Positions 7,077-23,407 of a stretch of 23,415 nt of DNA are shown in pieces. Each line of letters starts with the position of its first letter. Position 1 is the stretch's first letter. The position numbers and the translations under genes are program-made. Location: IMG/VR virus record IMGVR_UViG_3300018080_001866, positions 1 through 23,415 of that record, one strand, 5' to 3'. The notes below the pieces were generated by a model, which saw only the letters and a list, made by a program, of their open reading frames with translations, was not told where the DNA came from and made no database searches. The DNA comes from a virus.

Positions 7077-8687
7077 TTAGCTTCTGTCGTATAATGACAT
7101 AATATCAACAAAACCACCCATTTCTCCAATATTCTCTTTCACATATTTCATAACCTCTGGATTTCCAATATCTGATGGTCCGATGTCATTTAGTGTCATG
7201 ATATCCATAAACGATGACTCTTGTAATTTCATTGGAGCCATCATTAAAGGTGGGTCAAATTTACGAACATAAAAACAAACGGCACTTGCGAAAACCAAGT
7301 CATCATGACAATCGACATCAGCTTCAACTCTTCCTGATGACTTTGAAATCAATCCGACCAATTCAAGGGCTAATCGACTTGATCTCACACTCTCTGGGTA
7401 TTGACTGATATAAGAGTAGAGAGCATCAATCATTAAGGGTCTGGTCTTTGCAGTTGTAGCCAATCCCTTATAAAGTTGTTGACCTCTCTTCTCTTTGTAC
7501 ATCATCATCGAATATTCTGAGTTATGAATCTCTTCAACCACTTGATTTCCATAGGAATTTGATTCAATTACAACAAGACCAGGATATGTAGCACAAGCCA
7601 GTTTAACGATTTTCACAAAATCTTGAACTGGGCATTTCCCTTGATATTCCCACACTTGTCGAAGATCCCGATAATCCCAGACGACAACAGCAGATTTATC
7701 AGCCCCATGTTCAGGTGCGGTATCAACTCCAATAATATAGAAATTATCAGGAATTGGTTTCTCAAATGCCCACACTTCCCCGTTGAATATTTTAATCTTT
7801 TCAATAGGTTCCACGTTTGAGCTTTGGATTACTTCGATTGTTGATTCCTCGAAAAATGACCCCTCGCTCCCCAAGAATTTAAGTTCAAGTTCTTGTTGAA
7901 TCTTTCTTGGGTCATTATCCCACATCTCGCATTGTTGTCTATACCAATCAGGATCATTAGCCAATTCCTCTACATCCTGCCAATGAATTGTAAATGGTCG
8001 AAATAAACCATTTCCCGCATTTGCATTCACATATTTTTTATAAAACCATTTCCCAACACCAACTGTTCTATTCGGAGTTGAGAGAATGATTGTTCCATAT
8101 GGAACATTATTCTTTCTTGCAACTTTCTGATTGGTTGATAGAGTTGAAACCATTGATGTCCAAGCTACGTCGATATGTTTGATAAATGCAGCCTCATCGA
8201 TTACGAGAAATGTAATTGCTTGCCCTCTAAGGGTTTTCTCTGGAAAATTCGGGGCAACTGGTGTCGCATAACACTCACATCCATTATCCAAAATGAAAAC
8301 TCGTTCTGTTCTTTTATTGAACCCGGGTCTCATCCATTTAGGTAATTTATCAATCATCCCCATAATCGTTCTTGAGAATTTAGTCGCTTCTGGGCCATCT
8401 TTTGAGATGATCCCCACTACCACATTTTTATAAAATGTGGTTAACCATGCGACATATGCCTGTGTGATGGTCGATATTCCAATCTGTCTTGATTTCAAAA
8501 CGATTGCAAAATGATCTTTATTCAGGAGATTTGTTAACTTGGTCTGCGGTTTATACGGGGTTAATTTAAGGTCTTCACCGGGCACTTCGATAATAATATA
8601 ATTTCGGCAGAAGTAGTCAAATGAATTTCTACAGCGAAGAAACTCAAGAACATTTTCTTCTGCCATCTTGGGTAACTGCTTTGCCAT
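7077..8687 (-). CDS. terL: Terminase large subunit (packaging ATPase/nuclease)
   Basis: This 536-residue protein is the motor that translocates phage DNA into the prohead and cuts the concatemer. The N-terminal ATPase shows a variant Walker A, KSRQIGIST (residues 65-73), where the usual GK-[ST] lysine is absent and a lysine precedes SRQ, as seen in other phage terminases. Walker B is FLVIDEAAF with D164-E165, and the coupling motif is IILSTPN (about 200-206). The C-terminal RNase H-like nuclease has acidic residues at GVDTA (D322), VIESN (E375) and CHDDL (D462/D463). Length is typical for the family. An AAGGGAT precedes the ATG. It heads the terL / metalloprotease-like / tape measure block and lies behind a possible promoter motif at 8723-8740. 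Confidence 0.96.
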   Translation of the reverse strand: MAKQLPKMAEENVLEFLRCRNSFDYFCRNYIIIEVPGEDLKLTPYKPQTKLTNLLNKDHFAIVLKSRQIGISTITQAYVAWLTTFYKNVVVGIISKDGPEATKFSRTIMGMIDKLPKWMRPGFNKRTERVFILDNGCECYATPVAPNFPEKTLRGQAITFLVIDEAAFIKHIDVAWTSMVSTLSTNQKVARKNNVPYGTIILSTPNRTVGVGKWFYKKYVNANAGNGLFRPFTIHWQDVEELANDPDWYRQQCEMWDNDPRKIQQELELKFLGSEGSFFEESTIEVIQSSNVEPIEKIKIFNGEVWAFEKPIPDNFYIIGVDTAPEHGADKSAVVVWDYRDLRQVWEYQGKCPVQDFVKIVKLACATYPGLVVIESNSYGNQVVEEIHNSEYSMMMYKEKRGQQLYKGLATTAKTRPLMIDALYSYISQYPESVRSSRLALELVGLISKSSGRVEADVDCHDDLVFASAVCFYVRKFDPPLMMAPMKLQESSFMDIMTLNDIGPSDIGNPEVMKYVKENIGEMGGFVDIMSLYDRS

Positions 8688-13435: not shown

Positions 13436-13509
13436 TGGCGATGCTGAGGGGAATCGAACCCCTGTCGAATGATGGACAGTCAAACATGTTACCACTACAC
13501 CACAGCACC
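13436..13509 (-). tRNA. tRNA-Asp (anticodon GTC)
   Basis: A 74-base tRNA with encoded CCA. The acceptor GGTGCTG pairs with CAGCATC (one G-U), the D stem is GTGT/ACAT and the T arm AGGGG-TTCGATT-CCCCT. The anticodon loop is CTGTCCA (13473-13479), giving anticodon GTC at 13475-13477. Discriminator G73 and G10 agree with bacterial tRNA-Asp identity. The anticodon stem is poor: three pairs (TGA/TCA) and then two U-U mismatches. It sits inside a leftward gene cluster and is presumably cut from a longer transcript. Confidence 0.85.
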
Positions 13510-13513
13510 GCAA

Positions 13514-14110
13514 TTATATCCTTTGAGCTATACAATTCAAATAAATATCTCGGCCATCAAAATCGAACTTTTCAGCGATTGTCATAACTTTGAATCTTTG
13601 TTCCATCGCGAGGAACATTTTCAATCTATCCGCTGTCCAAATGCTCTTGTGAGGATCGTCTGGCTCATTCAGCATTTCGGTTGTGAGAAGAATGTTGTCT
13701 GTCCAGAATTCAATGTCGTAAACATCCTCAGCAATGAGCATTTGAGCGAGCATTTTGTAATCGGGGACAATGATATCAAGAAGGCCATCCTTCTTCACAC
13801 ACGTCGACAGAAGATAAATGAAATATAAAACTTGGTCCCTATGAATATGTTCTAAGATCCGGTAGAGACTTATAACATCGAATGTCACATTATATCTCGA
13901 AAGGAAATCAAACATATCATCATTTACGAAATATTCACCTTTGCTGCCCACAGGGAGGGCCCCCGTTTTATTTGTGAATCTGTGAGTCTTTTCCACATGT
14001 TCAATAGGATCTTCGGTGAAATAACATGTGTCCACATTTATAATGAGATCTCCTTCCTCAGCCATCAAAGGTCTTATTTTTCCTCCAGCCAGATTCAAAA
14101 TTGTCCTCAT
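13514..14110 (-). CDS. SAM-dependent methyltransferase-like protein
   Basis: A 198-residue protein starting MRTILNLAGGKIRPL, where LNLAGG stands in the place of the SAM-binding glycine motif I of class I methyltransferases. Later parts fit the family: VDTCYF after beta-2, then FDVISLYRILEHIHRDQVLYFI and KKDGLLDIIVPDYKML, very like the 'H-x-LEHi...VLKpGG-x-l-x-i-vPd' segment of COG4627-type predicted methyltransferases. Motif I is degenerate (AGG instead of GCG), so catalytic activity is uncertain. AAGGAGG lies four bases before this ATG; an ATG at 14125 overlapping the upstream stop as ATGA is an alternative start. Substrate unknown. Confidence 0.75.
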   Translation of the reverse strand: MRTILNLAGGKIRPLMAEEGDLIINVDTCYFTEDPIEHVEKTHRFTNKTGALPVGSKGEYFVNDDMFDFLSRYNVTFDVISLYRILEHIHRDQVLYFIYLLSTCVKKDGLLDIIVPDYKMLAQMLIAEDVYDIEFWTDNILLTTEMLNEPDDPHKSIWTADRLKMFLAMEQRFKVMTIAEKFDFDGRDIYLNCIAQRI

Positions 14111-14121
14111 CCTGCCTCCTT

Positions 14122-14847
14122 TCATGCAAATTCTAAACAGATTGATTCGGTGAATGGTCTGAGATAAAAGTCAAAATATCGACTCCTATCAATCTCATCC
14201 ACATCCAATAGGTTGACCATATTTTCTGTGATCCGAACTTCACCCATACCTTTGACGAATATGTTATATTCTCCTTCTCCAACTGGAATACAAAATAAAT
14301 CAGGATCGTCTGATCCCATAAATTCATCCTTCAATTTTTGTAAGTTTTTGAAGATGTCTGTTTTGTTCATGTAACTCATTCTGACTAATCTTCCCATGAA
14401 CTCATTCATTTCCTCGTATTTATGTGAAACCCCTTTGATTGAGATTTCTTTTCCATCAAAAGCCATATAACTCTTTCGATCAGATGAAATGATGAACGTC
14501 TGATAAATAGATCTTAATTCAAGGGGAAGATATTCCTGGTTTTTGTTTTTCAGGGGCCTTCGAAGAATTATCCCATCGTATTGTCTCGTAACAATGTCGT
14601 CTTCTTTGATATTGTTACGAGTTAAATGTTCACTTACAGTTGAGGTTGTGATGTCCCTCAAGATGTTCACCAGCTCTGGTCGTTCTCTCATCATCAACCC
14701 GATCTGGATATTTCTTTGAGTTTTATCGTCTTTATCCAGTTTCGAAAGATCGAAATTCATCTCTCGGAGGATTGAATAATGACAAGCCGAGATGTCATAG
14801 AGATAAACATCTCTCATGAAAAACGGACACGTTGAGTTTATATTCAT
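14122..14847 (-). CDS. Polymerase-palm-like small protein
   Basis: A 241-residue protein with three motifs in the order and spacing style of a family B DNA polymerase palm. DISACHYSIL (residues 18-27) lines up with motif A D-x2-SLYPSI. KTQRNIQIG (42-50) matches motif B K-x3-N-x2-[YI]-G. RQYDGIIL (88-95) stands where motif C Y-x-DTD would be, but keeps only one aspartate. The region between motifs A and C is far shorter than in any full polymerase, and there is no exonuclease domain. The C-terminal 140 residues are unrecognised. It overlaps the upstream zinc-finger gene and the downstream methyltransferase-like gene by ATGA. It could be a minimal nucleotidyl transferase, a relic or a polymerase accessory; function is inferred only. 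Confidence 0.7.
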   Translation of the reverse strand: MNINSTCPFFMRDVYLYDISACHYSILREMNFDLSKLDKDDKTQRNIQIGLMMRERPELVNILRDITTSTVSEHLTRNNIKEDDIVTRQYDGIILRRPLKNKNQEYLPLELRSIYQTFIISSDRKSYMAFDGKEISIKGVSHKYEEMNEFMGRLVRMSYMNKTDIFKNLQKLKDEFMGSDDPDLFCIPVGEGEYNIFVKGMGEVRITENMVNLLDVDEIDRSRYFDFYLRPFTESICLEFA

Positions 14848-15107
14848 CTTTGTTTTCCTGTGACTTGTGCAACCCAGTCAAGTTTGCCTTTTCCTTTACA
14901 TTTTTCACATGTAGCACGTTTGAATAAAGGGCCTTCATAAAAATCAAAATTTTCTTTTCGTGATTGAAAACATCTATCATCTATGACCTCTACAAATCTT
15001 GATCTGGATCTTCCAGTTCCGTCACATTTTGGGCATATTATTTCACTCATTTCTTCATTGAGTTCTAATTCTGAACTCCTGTGTTCTGTATTAGTGATAT
15101 CGCTCAT
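14844..15107 (-). CDS. DnaJ-like CxxCxGxG zinc-finger protein
   Basis: An 87-residue protein with CPKCDGTG (C25, C28) and CEKCKGKG (C67, C70), two half-repeats of the DnaJ-type zinc finger that bind one zinc ion between them. The ending GKGKLDWVAQVTGK resembles GHGKVDWIENVIGR at the end of the protein at 20423-20731. The N-terminus is acidic. A good AAGGAG precedes the ATG, and the stop overlaps the next ATG as ATGA. Such small proteins are frequent in large phages; their targets are unknown. It is not a J-domain chaperone, since no HPD segment is present. Confidence 0.75.
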   Translation of the reverse strand: MSDITNTEHRSSELELNEEMSEIICPKCDGTGRSRSRFVEVIDDRCFQSRKENFDFYEGPLFKRATCEKCKGKGKLDWVAQVTGKQR

Positions 15108-15195: not shown

Positions 15196-15972
15196 TTATT
15201 CGGTTGAGTTGACGATATGAATCATCGCATCATCCAGCTGGATAAGATGGGCCACATCATAGACGGTTGCTTGTCGGGCCAGGAGCCACCGAACTGCACT
15301 CAGATTGGTATCAATGTTGGATTCGACTTTCTTGATCTGCTTGTACAGCAGGGCTAGGTTTTCCATGTTGGCCGCTCTCGGAAGAGCATCGGTGACGGCC
15401 TGGGTCGGAGGTGTCTCCGGATACACGAACCGGTTCTCCTTCTTGTCGACCTTGACACGGCTGAACGGAATGAGCATTTCATCGACGGACACACAGTAGA
15501 CCAGGGTCATTCCGGACTTGGAGCCGTAGCATTTGACGAAATAGTTTTCGGCCAGCTGGCAAAGGATCGAGAAGGAATTGTGATTGTAGACCCGCATGGC
15601 CACCGGGGCATGATCAGGAACAGCAACCCCATCTGAATCTTCCATTGTGTAGATTCTTCGTCTGGGATTATCCCCGAACTCACCACCCTTCGGATGGGTG
15701 TCAGAGAGGACTAGGGTCTTGGAAGGATCAACACCCCTGACGGTGAGAGCGTGATTTTTCACATTCTCTACTTGGGCAATATGGGCACCGATCCACGCGG
15801 TCAGATTCGTGACTGCAATGGCATTGGCCGGAAGCGGCTCAGGCTCAGCCGGGGCCTCGGTAACGGGCTCTTCGGTTGTTGTGGTCGATGTGGTTGTGGG
15901 AAGTTCTGTTGCTCTGCCTTCGTCTTCTTCTGCGGGAAGATTGTCAACCATTTCTGCGAGATTATCAGTCAT
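15196..15972 (-). CDS. Hypothetical protein with Thr/Pro-rich N-terminal linker
   Basis: A 258-residue protein of unknown family. Residues 1-50 are acidic and low-complexity, with TTTSTTTTEEPVTEAPAEPE, a likely disordered linker. The folded part follows from ANAIAVTNLTAWIGAHIAQV, with a beta-rich centre (VAMRVYNHNSFSILCQLAENY) and a helical end. The SD is strong (AAGGAG, 7 bases) and the gene has its own terminator, so it forms a discrete transcription end. Its DNA is clearly more G+C-rich than the neighbours, like the genes at 11773 and 17262. That combination hints at an abundant product, which is inference. Confidence 0.8.
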   Translation of the reverse strand: MTDNLAEMVDNLPAEEDEGRATELPTTTSTTTTEEPVTEAPAEPEPLPANAIAVTNLTAWIGAHIAQVENVKNHALTVRGVDPSKTLVLSDTHPKGGEFGDNPRRRIYTMEDSDGVAVPDHAPVAMRVYNHNSFSILCQLAENYFVKCYGSKSGMTLVYCVSVDEMLIPFSRVKVDKKENRFVYPETPPTQAVTDALPRAANMENLALLYKQIKKVESNIDTNLSAVRWLLARQATVYDVAHLIQLDDAMIHIVNSTE

Positions 15973-16454: not shown

Positions 16455-16531
16455 TGGTCTGCCGGGCAGGATTTGAACCTGCGACTTTCTGGCCCCAAAC
16501 CAGACGCACTACCCGGCTGTGCTACCGGCAG
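16455..16531 (-). tRNA. tRNA-Pro (anticodon TGG)
   Basis: A 77-base tRNA with encoded CCA. The acceptor CTGCCGG pairs perfectly with CCGGCAG, the D stem is GCAC/GTGC, the anticodon arm TCTGG-TTTGGGG-CCAGA and the T arm GCAGG-TTCAAAT-CCTGC. The anticodon TGG is at 16495-16497. C1-G72 and A73 are the identity features of bacterial tRNA-Pro. The 5' 23 bases also encode the end of the HNH endonuclease gene, including its stop codon. Confidence 0.95.
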
Positions 16532-17003
16532 ACAAATGTTTCCAAGTTCTATTGATAACATCCCATATAGTTTTATGAGATACGTTATACATTTTCGAAA
16601 TTTCCATTTGTGTATAACCACTATGATATAAATTTCTGATATTTAGGACGTCATCCTCTGATAATTTTGAATGACCATGTGAAGATCCACGAGCTTGGTT
16701 TTTAGGTCTAGGCATTCCTTTATAATGTATCTTCGCATGGCCAGAATAAGATGTCAAACTCAAATTATCTGAATCATTATTTAGCTTATTTTCGTCATCG
16801 TGATGGACTATTTTATTTCTCTTTAATTTTCTACCCAATTTTTGTTCCATCACATGTCGATGAATATGAACAACCTTTCCATCAGAATCGAGGAAATATT
16901 GATAACCAGAATGTTTATCAACTCTAATTTCACCACAAGTTTTCTTGTGTCTAGAAAATCCATGTGGGGTTGTAAATTCTCGACCGCATTCACATTTATA
17001 CAT
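16509..17003 (-). CDS. HNH homing endonuclease overlapping tRNA-Pro
   Basis: A 164-residue protein with three parts. An N-terminal C2HC finger (C4, C6, H19, C23) comes first. The HNH nuclease core is at about residues 44-93, with IHRHVMEQKLGRKL, then VHHDDENKLNNDSDNLSLTS containing H67-H68 and N76/N80, and H89. A C-terminal helix-turn-helix follows (about 130-152, YTQMEISKMYNVSHKTIWDV). This is the layout of free-standing phage homing endonucleases that cut a specific site and spread by repair. The last eight codons and the TAG stop lie within the tRNA-Pro gene, so the insertion sits flush on the tRNA. The start overlaps the stop of the 70-residue gene by eight bases, with AAGGAA upstream. 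Confidence 0.92.
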   Translation of the reverse strand: MYKCECGREFTTPHGFSRHKKTCGEIRVDKHSGYQYFLDSDGKVVHIHRHVMEQKLGRKLKRNKIVHHDDENKLNNDSDNLSLTSYSGHAKIHYKGMPRPKNQARGSSHGHSKLSEDDVLNIRNLYHSGYTQMEISKMYNVSHKTIWDVINRTWKHLSAGSTAG

Positions 17004-17261: not shown

Positions 17262-18350
17262 CTAGTCGTTAGCGACTGTTTCTGTCTTCTCCCAGACTCT
17301 CTTTCTGAGGCCCAGAATCTCGTCATCGTTGAATGTGAGCCGATCCCAGTCAGTCCTCTTTCCAGGCTGACGATATCCTTTCTCCCATTCTTTGTCCTTC
17401 AGCCATGCTGGCATTTTGTTCTGACCATATTTGAAAAGGGCCAGCTCTGTGGCTCGGGTCGCAAACCGCAGCTTCGTGGTGGTGGATATCATCTTCTTCC
17501 TCATCCTGGTAATCTCGATGAGGTTTTCTTGGGTGGCTTCATATGTAGGATACTCCCCTACGAGTTCGGGGAAATCCACCTCAACCTGGAAGGCCGGAAC
17601 CTTGATCTTCTTCCCGGCTTCTTTGGTCGTCCTTCCGTGTGATCTCGGGGCTTCGGTCGATTCTGGGGGATACTCGATGCCCTCTTCCAGAAGCCGCTTG
17701 ATTTCTCTATTCAGATGCGAGGCCTGTTCTGTCAGCCGGCTGATCATCGCTTTTGTGATGAAATAGTATTGGCCGTAGAAGCTGGTCCATCTGTTCGGGT
17801 GGACGAAGTTTTTGAAGATGACCATGTTGCCGGTCCACAATTGATTCTCTGTGATGAATTTGTTCTCATCGGCTGACGGGAGGAACTCGATCTTCTGCCA
17901 TCCCTTGTACCATTCACCTTCCAGATCTGTCAGAGCGAAATTCCGGAATGCCCCGACTGAATCTGAGGTCATCACATTCATGTCCTTGATCCGGACTGAG
18001 AATGAAAAGACATCTTTATTTGAGGTGAGGCCGATGACATTTCCATGTCGATTCTCGGCCGACGTGATCATCTCACCCTCTCTCCGAGTCCTGGCCCGAA
18101 GTCCCTTATATTTCGGGAGATTGATCACAGCCCCTCTGTTGGCCAGGGCATAGATGAAACATGCCAGATCCAGATCGGTTCCGACGAAGACACCGTCCCG
18201 ATATGCAGGACCTGGGCTTCTTGACATGAGGTCATAACCCCACCAGTAGACGACCTCATCCACAGAGGCCAGGATGTCCGAATCCCGATTGATAATGTCA
18301 TCCATTAATTGTGTCTCAAGCAAAGATGTCAATGATTGAGCCGCGCACAT
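17262..18350 (-). CDS. Hypothetical 362-residue protein, G+C-rich
   Basis: A 362-residue protein with no recognised family. The first half is mixed alpha/beta (VDEVVYWWGYDLMSR, FVGTDLDLACFIYALANRG). A Trp/Tyr/Phe-rich middle (NRWTSFYGQYYFITKAMISR) is followed by a charged helix (LNREIKRLLEEGIEYPPEST) and a Lys/Arg-rich end. The ATG at 18350 has AAGGAG six bases upstream and overlaps the preceding array gene by 35 bases. Codons end in C or G far more often than in the array genes next to it, a clear base-composition step at their junction. Like the genes at 11773 and 15196, it may be strongly expressed or acquired separately. Confidence 0.8.
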   Translation of the reverse strand: MCAAQSLTSLLETQLMDDIINRDSDILASVDEVVYWWGYDLMSRSPGPAYRDGVFVGTDLDLACFIYALANRGAVINLPKYKGLRARTRREGEMITSAENRHGNVIGLTSNKDVFSFSVRIKDMNVMTSDSVGAFRNFALTDLEGEWYKGWQKIEFLPSADENKFITENQLWTGNMVIFKNFVHPNRWTSFYGQYYFITKAMISRLTEQASHLNREIKRLLEEGIEYPPESTEAPRSHGRTTKEAGKKIKVPAFQVEVDFPELVGEYPTYEATQENLIEITRMRKKMISTTTKLRFATRATELALFKYGQNKMPAWLKDKEWEKGYRQPGKRTDWDRLTFNDDEILGLRKRVWEKTETVAND

Positions 18351-18759
18351 AATTTGCTCCTTCCTGATCGTATCGTTTTATGGTTTTGATTAATCCTTCT
18401 GTAAATTGATCACTCAGATTGTACTGTAACACGGTGTTCTCGACCATTAATCTCCAGTCTCTATTGAGCATAACATTGATCACACCCCAATGTAATAAGT
18501 TGGGATTATTATCCACTTTGAGTGGTACGAGTTCTTTAAATTCGTGATAAATCACTTTTCCTCTAAATTTCAAAAATCTGAAATGCCACATATATGTAAT
18601 TACTGGATATGACCCGACTCCATCAGTGATGATGTTGGGAGAATCTCCAAAGAAATTCACTATGGTGCTGTACCCAACATCTATTAAATGAGCTGATGTA
18701 TATCTCTGACTTTCCATTGTGAAAGATTCAATTTGCTCGAACTTCCCTCTCACTCTCAT
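18316..18759 (-). CDS. FG-motif array member A
   Basis: A 147-residue member of the tandem paralogous family. The family signature is present as VGYSTIVNFFGDSP (about residues 28-41; Ser replaces the usual His), then MWHFRF and VMLNRDWRLMV. The C-terminus is longer than in the short members. The ATG overlaps the stop of member B as ATGA. It is the last array gene in the direction of reading, overlapping the start of the 362-residue gene by 35 bases. The function of the family is unknown. Confidence 0.75.
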   Translation of the reverse strand: MRVRGKFEQIESFTMESQRYTSAHLIDVGYSTIVNFFGDSPNIITDGVGSYPVITYMWHFRFLKFRGKVIYHEFKELVPLKVDNNPNLLHWGVINVMLNRDWRLMVENTVLQYNLSDQFTEGLIKTIKRYDQEGANYVRGSIIDIFA

Positions 18760-19122
18760 TTCATATTTTTCTCCCCCTCACAGATATAGGTTCGGATCTT
18801 TTCCCACATGGGGGCAAGTCCATCTTTGTCTTTTTCCATTCCCACAACCACCAGCTGCCAGTTTGTATTCAGAAGACCTAATGTCATTTCCGGTAGATGT
18901 CTTTCGTATGCGATATACCCTTTGAATTCTCTTTCATTAACTGAGAATATCCATTCGTACACTTCCGCATCTGGTTCTAGAAATTTGCATATAAGTGGGT
19001 CTCCGAATAAATTGACTAAATTGTGATAGCTGGTATAGATATGTTTCGCATGTCTTCTTGTCGGTCTATATGGGGGGAATATCTACATATGATACTTCTT
19101 CTCGATCATATACCTGAATCAT
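18756..19122 (-). pseudogene. FG-motif array member B, frameshifted at a C6 run
   Basis: The gene starts at ATG 19122, overlapping member C, and reads MIQVYDREEVSYVDIPPI before a TAG at 19066-19068. The family signature (YTSYHNLVNLFGDP) and the rest, to a stop at 18756, are in the +1 frame, and that frame has no ATG, GTG or TTG before the motif. Removing one C from the run of six at 19072-19077 restores one frame of about 117 codons. YEWIFS and LLNTNWQLVVV then follow as in the siblings, with similarity to member C (REFKGY..., PMWEKIRTYI). It may be a true mutation, a sequencing error in the homopolymer, or a +1 recoding site at CCC CCC A. Confidence 0.75.
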
Positions 19123-19447
19123 CTCTGGTCTCATAAATATATTTTCGCATCAACCTCCACATCGGGAATATATATTTGTCATTCCCGACTACCGTCAATG
19201 TCCATCGTCTATTTAATACTACTGATAGATAACTGGAATCCATCTTCTCATAATTGAGAAACCCCTTGAGTCTTTTTCTGTAAAACACAAATTCCCATTC
19301 GTAAAATTCAGGAGAATGACTGACAAATGGATACCCAAACAGATTTACGAGGGTGTGATATCCTACGAATATGTCACGGCAGTAATGGAGTCTTGGATTT
19401 CTTGGTTCAATATCTTCATATTCATAGATATCCCTGATGATTCTCAT
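19106..19447 (-). CDS. FG-motif array member C
   Basis: A 113-residue member with VGYHTLVNLFGYP, YEWEFVF, VVLNRRWTLTVVG and FPMWRLMRKYIYE. The start is the ATG overlapping the stop of member D (ATGA); an upstream GTG at 19483 gives a longer frame lying over member D and is rejected. It is closest to member B in its second half, so the two probably arose from one duplication. Function unknown. Confidence 0.75.
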   Translation of the reverse strand: MRIIRDIYEYEDIEPRNPRLHYCRDIFVGYHTLVNLFGYPFVSHSPEFYEWEFVFYRKRLKGFLNYEKMDSSYLSVVLNRRWTLTVVGNDKYIFPMWRLMRKYIYETRDDSGI

Positions 19448-19812
19448 TCGACCCTCATCAACATATTCCGAAATTCGTACCACACAGTTTTCATATCTTT
19501 TACATTATGTGACCGTACATCTAGGGTCCAGTCTGTGGTGAGAAGAATTGAGTTTTCTTCTTCTAGACCATAGACTTCCCCGAAAATATTTCGGAACTTG
19601 AAGAATTTTGTCTCGTAAACGAAATACCAAGAGTACATATTTTTGGGAAAAGCCCACCCTAGGGATAATTGTTGAACACCTCCAAATTCACCAAATACAT
19701 TTGTGATCACATGATACGGAACCTTTACATTTCTTGCGTGGCTATATTTGAGATTCTTTTTATTTTCTGAGAAGGTTTCGTATGGAATCCTAATGATTTG
19801 TTTAGGATTCAT
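19444..19812 (-). CDS. FG-motif array member D
   Basis: A 122-residue member with VPYHVITNVFGEF, YSWYFVYETKFF and ILLTTDWTLDVR. The N-terminus is basic and polar. The ATG lies 11 bases inside the end of member E, and the stop overlaps member C as ATGA, so the three are translationally linked. Function unknown. Confidence 0.75.
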   Translation of the reverse strand: MNPKQIIRIPYETFSENKKNLKYSHARNVKVPYHVITNVFGEFGGVQQLSLGWAFPKNMYSWYFVYETKFFKFRNIFGEVYGLEEENSILLTTDWTLDVRSHNVKDMKTVWYEFRNMLMRVE

Positions 19813-20407
19813 TTTCAGATCCCGTAATCAAGACTACCGCATCATCCAGAATACGCTCCATGTGTTCTTTCGCACCTACATCAAATGCGATGATATCCAA
19901 CCACCAATCAGTCACCAACAGAGGATTCAATTTCCTCGTTGTGTCTGATCTTAGGACCAGAACAAATGCGGGCACACTGGGTAACATATCTCTCACATTC
20001 TGTTTTCCGATGAGAGTTCGGATATATTTGAAATTGAATGGAAACATATACTTTCTATCTGCGTAGTGTTCTACGGTCATGAACCATCCACACTCGTCGA
20101 CTTTCTCCCACATACATCCTTCTAATTTTTCGACGTGATCCCAAAATTCTGGCTCCCCGAATAAATTCTCAAGGGTGTGATATCCGATGCAAGGTAGATC
20201 TGATGTCTCCCCAGTTACATGTAATTTCGATTTCGATCTGGCACATAAAGCAGCTCTCATTGCGGAAAATTTCAGATAGTCGTATCTCGAAATAGTTTTG
20301 AAGTCACTCCTTTTCAGAGGTCTTGGTTCACTTGTTTTATATTTCAGCTTATTCGGAAATACTCTTCTGATCAATCGTTGGAAAAACCGAAGAATCGAAC
20401 CTAACAT
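19802..20407 (-). CDS. FG-motif array member E, long form
   Basis: The longest member, with 201 residues. The first 25 (MLGSILRFFQRLIRRVFPNK) form a basic amphipathic helix that could bind membrane. The signature follows as IGYHTLENLFGEPEFW, then GWFMTVEHY, an inserted segment and NPLLVTDWWLDIIAFD. A good AGAGGAG precedes the ATG, and there is a short gap after the zinc-finger gene. Of the array genes, only this one carries such an extension. Confidence 0.75.
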   Translation of the reverse strand: MLGSILRFFQRLIRRVFPNKLKYKTSEPRPLKRSDFKTISRYDYLKFSAMRAALCARSKSKLHVTGETSDLPCIGYHTLENLFGEPEFWDHVEKLEGCMWEKVDECGWFMTVEHYADRKYMFPFNFKYIRTLIGKQNVRDMLPSVPAFVLVLRSDTTRKLNPLLVTDWWLDIIAFDVGAKEHMERILDDAVVLITGSENES

Positions 20408-20422
20408 TTTTTTCTCCTCTTT

Positions 20423-20731
20423 TCAGTATTTTTTTCTGTATCTTCCGATAACATTCTCGATCCAATCCACCTTCCCATGACCTTGACATCTCCAACAGAA
20501 TCTATCCCAACCCTTACATCTATCACAATAAACTTCCCCACGCTCATCCCTCAATTGGATGACGGGGTTGGGCATTCCCAGTTTTTTCATGATGTTGAGG
20601 ATAAGTAGTTTTATTTTAGAACAGTGTTCACATATATACCCAAATGCGGGTCTCTTCCCTTCGCACATGTAACACCAACACCATTCTAATTCTTTGACAA
20701 GTTTCCTTATGATTTTGAAGATCAAATTCAT
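20423..20731 (-). CDS. Cys-rich zinc-finger protein inside the array
   Basis: A 102-residue protein with nine cysteines: WCWCYMC (C18, C20, C23), CEHC (C34, C37), CDRC (C69, C72) and CWRCQGHG (C79, C82). These could bind two zinc ions. The N-terminus, MNLIFKIIRKLVKELEW, is a basic amphipathic helix like that of member E. The end, CQGHGKVDWIENVIGR, resembles the end of the DnaJ-like protein at 14844-15107. AAGGAG lies upstream, and the start overlaps the stop of member F as ATGA. It does not carry the FG motif. Confidence 0.75.
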   Translation of the reverse strand: MNLIFKIIRKLVKELEWCWCYMCEGKRPAFGYICEHCSKIKLLILNIMKKLGMPNPVIQLRDERGEVYCDRCKGWDRFCWRCQGHGKVDWIENVIGRYRKKY

Positions 20732-21120
20732 CCCCTCTCCTTTATGTAACCCTTCAAGAGGTCAAAACATCTAGTACAACATTGGTAATCCTGATCGAAT
20801 ATCTGAACATTCCAATTTCGATTTAGAAGAATCGGACCCAACCTTGATTTAGCCTCTAACCATTGGATTATCCCATATATCCAATCAACTTTGAAGCTCC
20901 ACACAAAATGCAGGACTTCGAAATTGTCCACATATATCGTCGCAATTTCTCCAAATAAGTTACACAAGGTATGATAACCCACATCTTCCAACATAAAATC
21001 TGACCATGATATCCCATTAAGGGAGAGATCATTATAATAATATTTCAAAACTTCCATGTAAGGTGTGGGTTGAACATTCTTGAGATATTTGTATAATCTA
21101 TTCTCGACCGACGATCCCAT
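20728..21120 (-). CDS. FG-motif array member F
   Basis: A member of about 130 residues with DVGYHTLCNLFGEI, FVWSFKVDW and GPILLNRNWNVQIFD, and a CCTRC near the C-terminus. The start is uncertain. ATGs at 21153, 21132, 21120 and 21057 are in frame and none has a clear SD; 21120 limits the overlap with the clpP-like gene. The stop overlaps the zinc-finger gene as ATGA. Function unknown. Confidence 0.7.
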   Translation of the reverse strand: MGSSVENRLYKYLKNVQPTPYMEVLKYYYNDLSLNGISWSDFMLEDVGYHTLCNLFGEIATIYVDNFEVLHFVWSFKVDWIYGIIQWLEAKSRLGPILLNRNWNVQIFDQDYQCCTRCFDLLKGYIKERG

Positions 21121-21670
21121 CGACAAGCCCATATTTGATACACTCTTTTGCATCGAGATATAGATCCCTCTTTAGAAGTTCAGAGATGAAACTTTTGGAC
21201 ATCTTTGTATGTTTGCAATATATATTCTTTATCATTTTCATGAGTTTTCTTGAGTTCTTTCCCCAATCAACCAACTCTTCATATTTCCCCCAAAATCCAT
21301 GAGACATTTGATGAACCAGGATAAATGCGTGGGGGTTGATCAATCGTCTTGTTCCTACCACGCTCATGAATGTTCCAGCACTCATGCAACATCCGTCAAT
21401 GACGGTTGTCACTGGGACGATTTCTTTCACATTCAAAATTTCATCCATCATGGCAATTCCTGCAAAGACAGATCCACCAAATGTATTTATGTGGACAAAT
21501 ATATTTCCGGGGTCGTCCATCTCTTCAACGACTTGTCTCCTGATAAGACCGTTTTTCATGTTCCGGATCGATTTGTTGAAGTCCAATGCTGTTGATCTTT
21601 CAACATCGTTGTAAAAATAGATTCTATTCTTGACAACCTCAGATTTCGAAACTGTTTTTATCTCTGCCAT
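21098..21670 (-). CDS. clpP: ClpP-like serine protease (family S14)
   Basis: A 190-residue protein with the ClpP/crotonase fold signature. HINTFGGSVFAGIAMMDEI (about residues 60-78) matches the 'InSpGG-x-v-x-aG-x-aiyd' segment. The nucleophile region is CMSAGTFM with Ser97, followed by FILVHQMSHG with His120, and KRDLYLDAKECIKYGLVDGI with Asp169, so the Ser-His-Asp triad is complete. It is about as long as cellular ClpP. Phage S14 proteases usually act in head maturation next to portal and capsid genes, but this one sits inside an array of unknown genes, so another substrate is possible. AAAGGGA precedes the ATG. It overlaps both neighbours. Confidence 0.92.
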   Translation of the reverse strand: MAEIKTVSKSEVVKNRIYFYNDVERSTALDFNKSIRNMKNGLIRRQVVEEMDDPGNIFVHINTFGGSVFAGIAMMDEILNVKEIVPVTTVIDGCCMSAGTFMSVVGTRRLINPHAFILVHQMSHGFWGKYEELVDWGKNSRKLMKMIKNIYCKHTKMSKSFISELLKRDLYLDAKECIKYGLVDGIVGRE

Positions 21671-22046
21671 GTAATTCCCTTTCTTCGTAAGATTGAATGA
21701 AATCGACTATTTCTTGGAGTTGTTTCTGTATGGATGGTAGACCATCTCTTCGACACACTCGAATATACATCGTCCACGATTCAATGAAGAATATATGTTC
21801 CTTTTTATATTCCTCTCCGATTATAATACCAATATGGGTATCTGTTTTAAAATACCACATATGCTGAAAATATTGAATTGTGAGATTCACTTTCGTTGAA
21901 TGATGTATATCTCCAAAAATATTACATATTATGTGATATGGAACATAGATTGTGTATCCCGATGTCGTATATGAGGTATCCCCCACGGCATGTTGGGCAA
22001 TTACGGTTTCATAATATTCTTTCAAAGTGATGGGTTCGATGTTCAT
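21639..22046 (-). CDS. FG-motif array member G
   Basis: A 135-residue member beginning MNIEPITLKEYYETV, the same N-terminal pattern as members H, I and K. The signature follows as VPYHIICNIFGDI, then MWYFKTDTHIG and IFFIESWTMYIRV. The C-terminal helix runs into the start of the clpP-like gene with a 32-base overlap. The ATG overlaps the stop of the shifted frame of member H as ATGA. Confidence 0.75.
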   Translation of the reverse strand: MNIEPITLKEYYETVIAQHAVGDTSYTTSGYTIYVPYHIICNIFGDIHHSTKVNLTIQYFQHMWYFKTDTHIGIIIGEEYKKEHIFFIESWTMYIRVCRRDGLPSIQKQLQEIVDFIQSYEERELHGRDKNSFEI

Positions 22047-22392
22047 GATTCTTTATCCGCATATGTGATATGTTCAACAACTTCTTTCAATATGTGGACG
22101 TGTTTTTTCTGACCTTGAGACTCCAATTCTTGCACAACAGAATTGAGGATCTCCCCACTTCCTCTTTTCCCATTATCATACCGGAAATTTTATAATTAGT
22201 GAGGAAATACCAACAATGTTTATTTACCTGTGGGCCAGAATTTGTGGGAATAGGGACAGTGATCATAATATGATCAGGTTCTCCGAACATATTGATTATC
22301 GTATGATAGCTCGCATTAAAATATATGTTGATTGTATTCACCACAACTCCAAGCGAGAGATATTTATAGAAATCAATCGGTTGTATCTTCAT
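22043..22392 (-). CDS. FG-motif array member H with a frameshift at A_AAA_AAC
   Basis: The gene starts at ATG 22392 (MKIQPIDFYKYLSL, AGAGGA upstream) and has ASYHTIINMFGEP, CWYFLTNYKI and ILLCKNWSLKVRK. In the zero frame it stops at 22087, without the C-terminal helix of its siblings. A minus-one shift at A_AAA_AAC (22102-22108) continues as KKHVHILKEVVEHITY and ends at TGA 22043-22045, overlapping the next ATG as ATGA, exactly like the other members. So the original gene was about 117 codons. It is either a one-base loss in a homopolymer, a sequencing error, or programmed minus-one frameshifting. Confidence 0.75.
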
Positions 22393-22720
22393 TTTCAATC
22401 CTCTCGAAAAGCTCGACCATGTATTCGATATGATGAGGTTGACAATTCGACATGGTCATGACCCAATCTCTTTTGAGAAATATGGGTTCACCTGTTTTTT
22501 TAATCATTGCCATCACGTATCCGATAACCACATTATCCAATTCGAAATTCCAGAAATAATAATTATGGGTGGTGCTCAGAGTGGTCGTAACATACACCAC
22601 ATCACCGAGGACTTTCACGATTGTATGATACCCAACATCCTCGATTCTCTGCATACCCAATGTGTCTTCCAATTTAATTCTTTTGTGATATTCGTCTTCA
22701 TCAATCGATCTCAGGTTCAA
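22373..22720 (-). CDS. FG-motif array member I, TTG start
   Basis: A 115-residue member with DVGYHTIVKVLGDV, YYFWNFELDN and PIFLKRDWVMTM. The start is taken as TTG 22720, because the resulting NLRSIDEDEYHKR matches the N-terminal pattern of members G, H and K and GGAGG lies upstream; an ATG at 22738 is the alternative. It overlaps member J by 20 bases and member H by 20 bases. Confidence 0.7.
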   Translation of the reverse strand: MNLRSIDEDEYHKRIKLEDTLGMQRIEDVGYHTIVKVLGDVVYVTTTLSTTHNYYFWNFELDNVVIGYVMAMIKKTGEPIFLKRDWVMTMSNCQPHHIEYMVELFERIENEDTTD

Positions 22721-23048
22721 TTTTTCCCTCCTCCACATCGATGAAATATTCTAGAATTTCCCCAAACATCGTTTCTCCAATTGACCCATCATAATAGATG
22801 AACACTTTCCAGGTCTTATTCAAGAATACAGGGATGCGATCATCAGCCTCAATTTCATATACAAGATCATCAACTTTAAAATACCACCCATATTTACCGT
22901 AATCGACCTCTCCCCACACGACCGTCCATGTATTTTGAATGGGTCCTAAAATTTTGTAGATGGTGTGAAATGATATTCCACATAGATGAGTGGCAGCTCG
23001 GAGTTCCCAATTGGGTATATCATGTATGGTGGCTAGTTGAATATTCAT
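22701..23048 (-). CDS. FG-motif array member J
   Basis: A 115-residue diverged member: ISFHTIYKILGPI, YGWYFKVDDLVYEIE and PVFLNKTWKVFIYYDG. The G-E/D after the FG-type motif is replaced by G-P. It has a clear AGGAG before the ATG, and its tail (EGKIEPEID) overlaps the start of member I. Confidence 0.75.
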   Translation of the reverse strand: MNIQLATIHDIPNWELRAATHLCGISFHTIYKILGPIQNTWTVVWGEVDYGKYGWYFKVDDLVYEIEADDRIPVFLNKTWKVFIYYDGSIGETMFGEILEYFIDVEEGKIEPEID

Positions 23049-23056
23049 CGCTTCTC

Positions 23057-23407
23057 CTATATAATTGCGACTTCGAATAATCCCCTGATTTTATTATATA
23101 CCTGTTCACTTTGTTTCTCGATAAATTCATGATGCCCTGAGAATAAGAATAACCACATTCTATTTAGCAGGATATGTCCCCCAGGTTTCTGTATATGTGT
23201 ATGTATGAAACACTTGATTGGATAATTACGGAATCGAAAGAACCATCTATATTGGGAGAATGCGTCTGCATCCATGATATTAGGTTCTCCCAGAATATTA
23301 ACAATTTCGTGATACCCAATATTGTCGATTAGAATTGATCTGGATAGTGATTTTTTCCAATGTGAGGTTGCGACATATTCGTCTGCATCAATTAGAATTA
23401 ACCCCAT
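23057..23407 (-). CDS. FG-motif array member K
   Basis: A 116-residue member with MGLILIDADEYVA at the N-terminus, then NIGYHEIVNILGEP, YRWFFRFRNYPIKCFIH and HILLNRMWLFLFSG. It ends eight bases before member J. Its start is only eight bases from the right edge of the window, so the SD is not visible and the array may continue beyond. Confidence 0.75.
   Translation of the reverse strand: MGLILIDADEYVATSHWKKSLSRSILIDNIGYHEIVNILGEPNIMDADAFSQYRWFFRFRNYPIKCFIHTHIQKPGGHILLNRMWLFLFSGHHEFIEKQSEQVYNKIRGLFEVAII

Follow-up and report, generated by a model that had tools for sequence, protein, structure and literature searches.

A 241-residue viral protein predicted to be a strongly reduced family B DNA polymerase

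A 23.4-kb virus record (IMG/VR record IMGVR_UViG_3300018080_001866; all 23,415 nucleotides were analysed and are hereafter called the window) contains a short open reading frame whose product carries, in the usual order, what look like the three palm motifs of family B DNA polymerases (PolBs). This raises the question of whether so small a protein is a polymerase relative at all and, if it is, whether it could still add nucleotides. The frame at 14122-14847 is a real gene, as the original prediction had supposed, and it lies on the minus strand, a detail absent from that prediction. The gene, hereafter the mini-polymerase, and its nearest neighbours are as follows.

14122-14847, minus strand: predicted mini family B polymerase core (palm and thumb), 241 aa, defined by the open reading frame and the predicted fold
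14844-15107, minus strand: upstream CxxC zinc-ribbon-like frame, 87 aa, overlapping the mini-polymerase start by 4 nt
13514-14125, minus strand: downstream methyltransferase-like frame, 203 aa, overlapping the mini-polymerase end by 4 nt
15196-15972, minus strand: conserved upstream gene, 258 aa, with its family present in 62 of 64 loci

Scans of viral contigs in IMG/VR recovered 3 relatives at first, 16 in the next round and at least 116 in the last, of which 80 were kept. A first alignment of 15 sequences showed 37-52% identity, and 83 loci, reduced to 63 at 90% identity, gave together with the window protein the 64 rows of alignment A3. Purifying selection on the mini-polymerase gene is strong, with pairwise dN/dS values of 0.04-0.17 among the 25 closest pairs listed. 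The protein also matched the profile of phrog_21037 (E 5e-12, residues 14-202), which is the same family without a functional name; it is annotated as function unknown, includes AR9 gp238 and PBS1 gp130, and was found by tblastn and in PHROGs in 18 records of Bacillus, Staphylococcus and Listeria phages. Furthermore, a profile built from the joint alignment matched 9 of 12 records, eight of the nine being members of the profile or sequences identical to one, and recognized gp276 of Yersinia phage phiR1-37 (E 5e-23); among the 12 records, phiKZ, SPN3US and T4 gave no match. The jumbo phages with orthologues are PBS1/AR9-like ones, those of Staphylococcus and Listeria, and Yersinia phiR1-37.

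A scan of genome contigs (genome_contigs) returned 21 pattern matches, none of them a relative, and a scan of plasmids returned no match. Rows from Synechococcus phages in the tblastn search (E about 2) were rejected as chance matches, which in the record examined overlap the gene for the head maturation protease. The mini-polymerase had no PolB (PF00136) match in Pfam and no match in PADLOC or NCBIfam. None of the titles and abstract openings searched in the open-licence literature names the family, an absence that carries little weight, and phrog_21037 appeared in no paper; the passages of PMC5312081 gave no expression class for AR9 gp238.

Because it overlaps both neighbours by 4 nt, the mini-polymerase frame reads as a member of an operon. 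Frames related to the 87-aa CxxC neighbour occur in only 5 of the 64 loci, and the methyltransferase-like frame has a weak Methyltransf_23 match (E 0.018, below the cut-off). The conserved block of the window lineage, counted over the 64 loci, comprises a gene of 254 aa (62 loci), a DUF932 gene (58), the methyltransferase-like gene (53) and the terminase (52), which in the window is a T4-type terminase at 7077-8687. In addition, an RNA polymerase beta subunit of about 1,000 aa lies upstream in many relatives (for example, L003:129-3230), and its cluster is present in 39 of the 64 loci, which places the lineage among the phages with a multisubunit RNA polymerase.

The original prediction of a minimal protein with a reduced or repurposed family B polymerase fold was supported by structure prediction. 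AlphaFold2, run on alignment A3, yielded a confident model of residues 1-241 (pLDDT 92.9, pTM 0.85) with a palm and a thumb of the family B type. The model consists of a strand at residues 14-18, a motif B helix at 42-55, a hairpin of strands 85-88 and 92-95, and C-terminal helices and strands. In the model, D18 ends the first of these strands and D91 lies in the turn of the hairpin; these are the places at which a polymerase palm has its two catalytic residues. A Foldseek search of the PDB with this model gave 51 matches at E <= 1e-3, and all 50 that were listed are family B polymerases (TM scores 0.36-0.62 on query length). VIA-align superposed residues 1-241 on residues 396-890 of RB69 (Z 12.3, 3.3 Å, 237 residues) and also aligned KOD (Z 12.1), Pol alpha (Z 11.4) and Pol II; the top rows are herpes simplex virus UL8 (Z 12.9, 4.5 Å, 231 residues), which counts as tied with RB69 because rows within 1 Z were treated as equal. 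The best viral fold match was BFVD entry G4KKL4 (253 residues, E 1.6e-11, TM 0.74), which is presumably phiR1-37 gp276, itself of 253 residues.

We also modelled the conserved neighbour at 15196-15972 in search of a partner function. Its model was likewise confident (pLDDT 90.9) but had no PDB match at E <= 0.001, with a best Z of 4.3 and none at or above 5; thus, the PolB matches of the mini-polymerase are not a habit of the method. Judging from the model, a PolB fold and homology to PolBs are very probable.

The spacing of the motifs is tighter than in replicative polymerases, as had been pointed out from the sequence: D18 and K42 are 24 residues apart, compared with 149 in T4, and K42 and D91 are 49 residues apart, compared with 63. 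The short distance between motifs A and B follows from the reduction of the fingers to about 25 residues, with the motif order unchanged, so that no fingers domain lies between these two motifs. Motif A begins at residue 17, leaving no room upstream in the frame for an N-terminal 3'-5' exonuclease. The parts of the protein map to the window as follows.

14767-14799, minus strand: motif A, residues 17-27, YDISACHYSIL, with D18 as predicted metal ligand
14698-14724, minus strand: motif B, K-x3-N-x2-I-G (residues 42-50), with which helix 42-55 begins
14563-14586, minus strand: motif C, RQYDGIIL (residues 88-95), with D91 in the turn of the hairpin formed by strands 85-88 and 92-95
14431-14478, minus strand: hairpin with R/K-x-x-Y and K-G, residues 124-139, corresponding to the KKRY...G region of PolBs
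14125-14415, minus strand: thumb-like C-terminal region, residues 145-241, covered by the whole-length alignment to RB69 gp43 396-890

Motifs A, B and C stand in the predicted order (D18; K42-x3-N46-x3-G50; D91), and the stretch from D18 to D91 spans 74 residues. D18, K42, N46, G50, N78, D91, K138 and G139 are each present in 63 of 63 distinct sequences of the window lineage, the window protein included, although for motifs A and C this invariance is partly ascertained since most loci were recruited by patterns of those two motifs. This way of recruitment does not bias the motif B and KG residues, the Bacillota-phage branch or phiR1-37, and the same eight residues are found in 7 of 7 sequences of the distant Bacillota branch (21-25% identity in the joint alignment). 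With M1 added, these are the invariant positions of alignment A3. M1 and N78 apart, each of them belongs either to one of the three motifs or to the KG hairpin. By comparison, the T4 residues invariant in an alignment of ten phage PolBs are D408, K557, N561, G565, D620 and G726; the pairing with the mini-polymerase was made from motif order and spacing, and K138 has no invariant counterpart in that alignment.

Within the motifs, agreement with PolBs is uneven. The motif A match that had been read from the sequence holds for D18 but not for S20, which is not conserved (E in 29 and S in 19 of 63); at the PolB-like D+7 position (S25), 53 of 63 sequences have T, N or S. In motif B, K, N and G are kept in both branches with exactly the PolB spacing, the same as that of T4 K557-N561-G565; in the rest of the PolB pattern K-x3-N-S-x-Y-G, the S is mostly replaced by I, T or V, and the Y by I or V. 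Motif C has, as noted at the outset, a single aspartate and does not follow the two-Asp pattern Y-x-D-T-D-S. We take D91 as the second Asp of DTDS, with Q89 standing for the first, a position occupied by Q in 59 and A in 4 of 63 sequences and by K in 7 of 7 from the Bacillota branch. In phiR1-37 gp276, read by eye, Q takes the place of N46, with D, K, G, D and KG unchanged.

In family B polymerases, the position five residues after the motif A Asp is the steric gate, a role played by Y416 in RB69. We take H23 to sit at the position of this Tyr; it is H in 63 of 63 sequences of the window lineage and G in 7 of 7 Bacillota-phage sequences, as well as in phiR1-37.

Of 200,000 shuffled versions of the protein, 38 matched a motif pattern set post hoc, as did 1 of the 171 AR9 open reading frames of at least 150 aa, namely the orthologue gp238; conservation is the stronger evidence. 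Profile comparison gave no significant link to PolBs. hhalign against ten phage PolBs gave P values of 0.07-0.1, which are not significant, whether the fingers columns were included or removed, although the KG region was in register; nothing was obtained against AR9 gp151. Searches of PDB sequences with profiles A1 and A3 found no match, and profile A2 found one, Sulfolobus PolB1 (1s5j), at a sub-threshold E of 0.26 with the 124-139 hairpin in register. The assignment thus rests on the predicted structure together with the order, spacing and invariance of the motifs.

Most carriers with large records encode a PolB, full or split, so that the mini-polymerase is an extra palm. In AR9, two proteins divide the PolB between them, gp131 with the exonuclease and motif A, and gp151 with motifs B and C; PolB families were also matched in the complete carriers phiR1-37, SA1, LPJP1, Machias, MarsHill and S6. 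A single PolB in a frame of about 1,080 aa was found in 4 of the 17 metagenomic carriers tested, which are four of the five largest; the remaining 13 contigs, of 92-207 kb, may be fragments. The PolBs of two contigs (G001 and G004, loci L096 and L097), the two examined by Pfam, have a uracil-DNA glycosylase (UDG) domain (PF03167) fused to the N terminus. A guanylate-kinase gene is annotated just upstream of the mini-polymerase gene in AR9, PBS1 and 3 of the 5 Staphylococcus records fetched, and an RNase H or dCMP deaminase gene lies close by in AR9, PBS1, BpSp, SA1, MarsHill and S6.

We propose that the protein is a family B DNA polymerase strongly reduced to a stand-alone core and accessory to the PolB of the phage, a reading to which we give a probability of about 0.5. 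It would consist of a palm with motifs A, B and C, the KxY-KG hairpin and a thumb, and of the fingers only the base of the motif B helix would be left. From the fold and the conservation, D18 and D91 would bind two metal ions, K42 and N46 (the counterparts of RB69 K560 and N564) would hold the nucleotide triphosphate, and the hairpin at 124-139 would hold the primer-template duplex together with the thumb. Nucleotide addition would be distributive and without proofreading, would proceed alongside the phage's own PolB, and could serve gap filling, extension of lesions or mismatches, or end tailing. As to function, an accessory polymerase or nucleotidyl transferase without proofreading is the most likely.

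Whether catalysis is retained is, in our estimate, evenly balanced. Against it, the motif B Tyr is replaced by I or V, the steric-gate Tyr by H or G, and the fingers are almost gone; in RB69, the fingers helix that is lost here supplies further contacts to the phosphates. The loss of the first motif C Asp is compatible with activity, since PolB2/Dpo2 and piPolB also lack it and are active. In RB69, D411, D621 and D623 form the catalytic triad and bind metal directly or indirectly (excerpt of PMC3792054); PolB2 is described as an efficient polymerase despite lacking the first motif C Asp (excerpt of PMC8764526), and piPolB, also without it, polymerises (excerpt of PMC7544198). PolB2 furthermore resembles the mini-polymerase in being without exonuclease activity (PMC8764526, same excerpt). 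However, PolB2/Dpo2 and piPolB are full-sized enzymes of proven activity, and the likeness is one of features and not of a close sequence link. The replicative enzymes RB69/T4 gp43, KOD, Pol II and Pol alpha share the palm and thumb fold in the same order, and replicative PolBs share the motif A Asp, K-x3-N-x3-G, the second motif C Asp, and the Y and then the G of KKRY...G; the mini-polymerase differs from them in having no exonuclease, nearly no fingers, no first motif C Asp and about a quarter of their size. The divergent DNA polymerase of phiKZ (PF20286) is likewise a jumbo-phage PolB but forms large single or split chains, and phiKZ and SPN3US have the PF20286 polymerase without a mini-palm.

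The main rival is a non-catalytic subunit of the replisome or of nucleotide sensing, derived from a PolB palm in the manner of UL8 or the C-terminal half of Pol epsilon, which would bind primer-template, or dNTP and metal, and bridge other replication proteins. We consider it less likely than the accessory polymerase but clearly more likely than the readings below. UL8, the highest VIA-align match, has the same fold, belongs to the herpesvirus helicase-primase and is accessory to another PolB, although it is far longer (aligned chain of 717 residues). The missing fingers, the lost first motif C Asp and the presence of a PolB in the carrier phages would all suit such a subunit, and UL8, F12 and Pol epsilon C are precedents (excerpts of PMC4304020 and PMC7544198). 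However, inactivated PolBs lose their catalytic residues: UL8 is described as an inactivated PolB, and in F12 most palm residues are replaced (excerpt of PMC4304020). In the mini-polymerase, only the first motif C Asp has been lost, and both branches, at 21-25% identity to each other, keep D18, K42, N46, G50 and D91 without exception. Going by the sequences, we therefore lean towards an active nucleotidyl transferase over a repurposed fold.

The steric-gate position bears on two further possibilities. With H or G in place of the Tyr, ribonucleotides might be tolerated or preferred; a bolder form of the reduced-polymerase reading, in which an active PolB of about 240 residues with almost no fingers and no exonuclease has this property and serves priming or lesion handling in jumbo phages without recognisable primases, seems to us unlikely. 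Somewhat less likely still is a primase-like or ribonucleotide-using nucleotidyl transferase that would provide the phage PolB with short primers, either starting them or extending them. The absent fingers and Tyr gate would fit it, none of 10 carrier records (10/10) has a match to DNAG_N, Toprim_4 or DNA_primase_S, RNase H is encoded close by in several carriers, and Group 1 jumbo phages are said to be without known primases but to have RNase H (excerpt of PMC7824862). However, AR9 gp224 is annotated as a DNA primase (with no Pfam primase match), LPJP1 has a weak, sub-cut-off Toprim_2 match (E 0.009), the mini-palm is absent from phiKZ and SPN3US, and the phage RNA polymerases could prime.

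Given the split of the AR9 PolB into two chains, the mini-palm could be a third fragment that completes the replicative enzyme. This is very improbable, because gp131 and gp151 together hold one full set of A, B, C and KKxY, to which the mini-palm would add a second, and because the PolB is a single chain in the four metagenomic carriers. That the motifs arose by chance in a frame that is unrelated or spurious, a view for which the absence of a curated family name and the non-significant profile comparisons might speak, is contradicted by the confident model, its whole-length PolB match, the at least 116 relatives and the low dN/dS.

A strongly reduced, accessory PolB would offer the first functional lead for a conserved protein of unknown function in PBS1/AR9, Staphylococcus S6-like and Yersinia phiR1-37 jumbo phages. 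The mini-polymerase may be a very small working polymerase; if active, it would rank with the smallest enzymes of the PolB type and demonstrate that the fingers are dispensable. It makes testable which parts of a family B enzyme nucleotide addition truly needs: the repurposed PolB relatives UL8 and F12 have also lost their active sites, whereas the mini-polymerase family, without exonuclease and nearly without fingers, keeps D, K, N, G and D.

Elsewhere in the window, about ten short frames (103-201 aa) on the minus strand at 18316-23407, often overlapping, have a common motif like GYHTI-x-N-x-FGE and look like a tandem paralogue family; no Pfam match was found for any of them. Within this run, a ClpP-type protease (PF00574, E 1.6e-27) is encoded at 21098-21670 on the minus strand. 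The window also contains two tRNA genes on the minus strand, tRNA-Asp at 13436-13509 and tRNA-Pro at 16455-16531, the latter overlapping the end of an HNH frame at 16509-17003.
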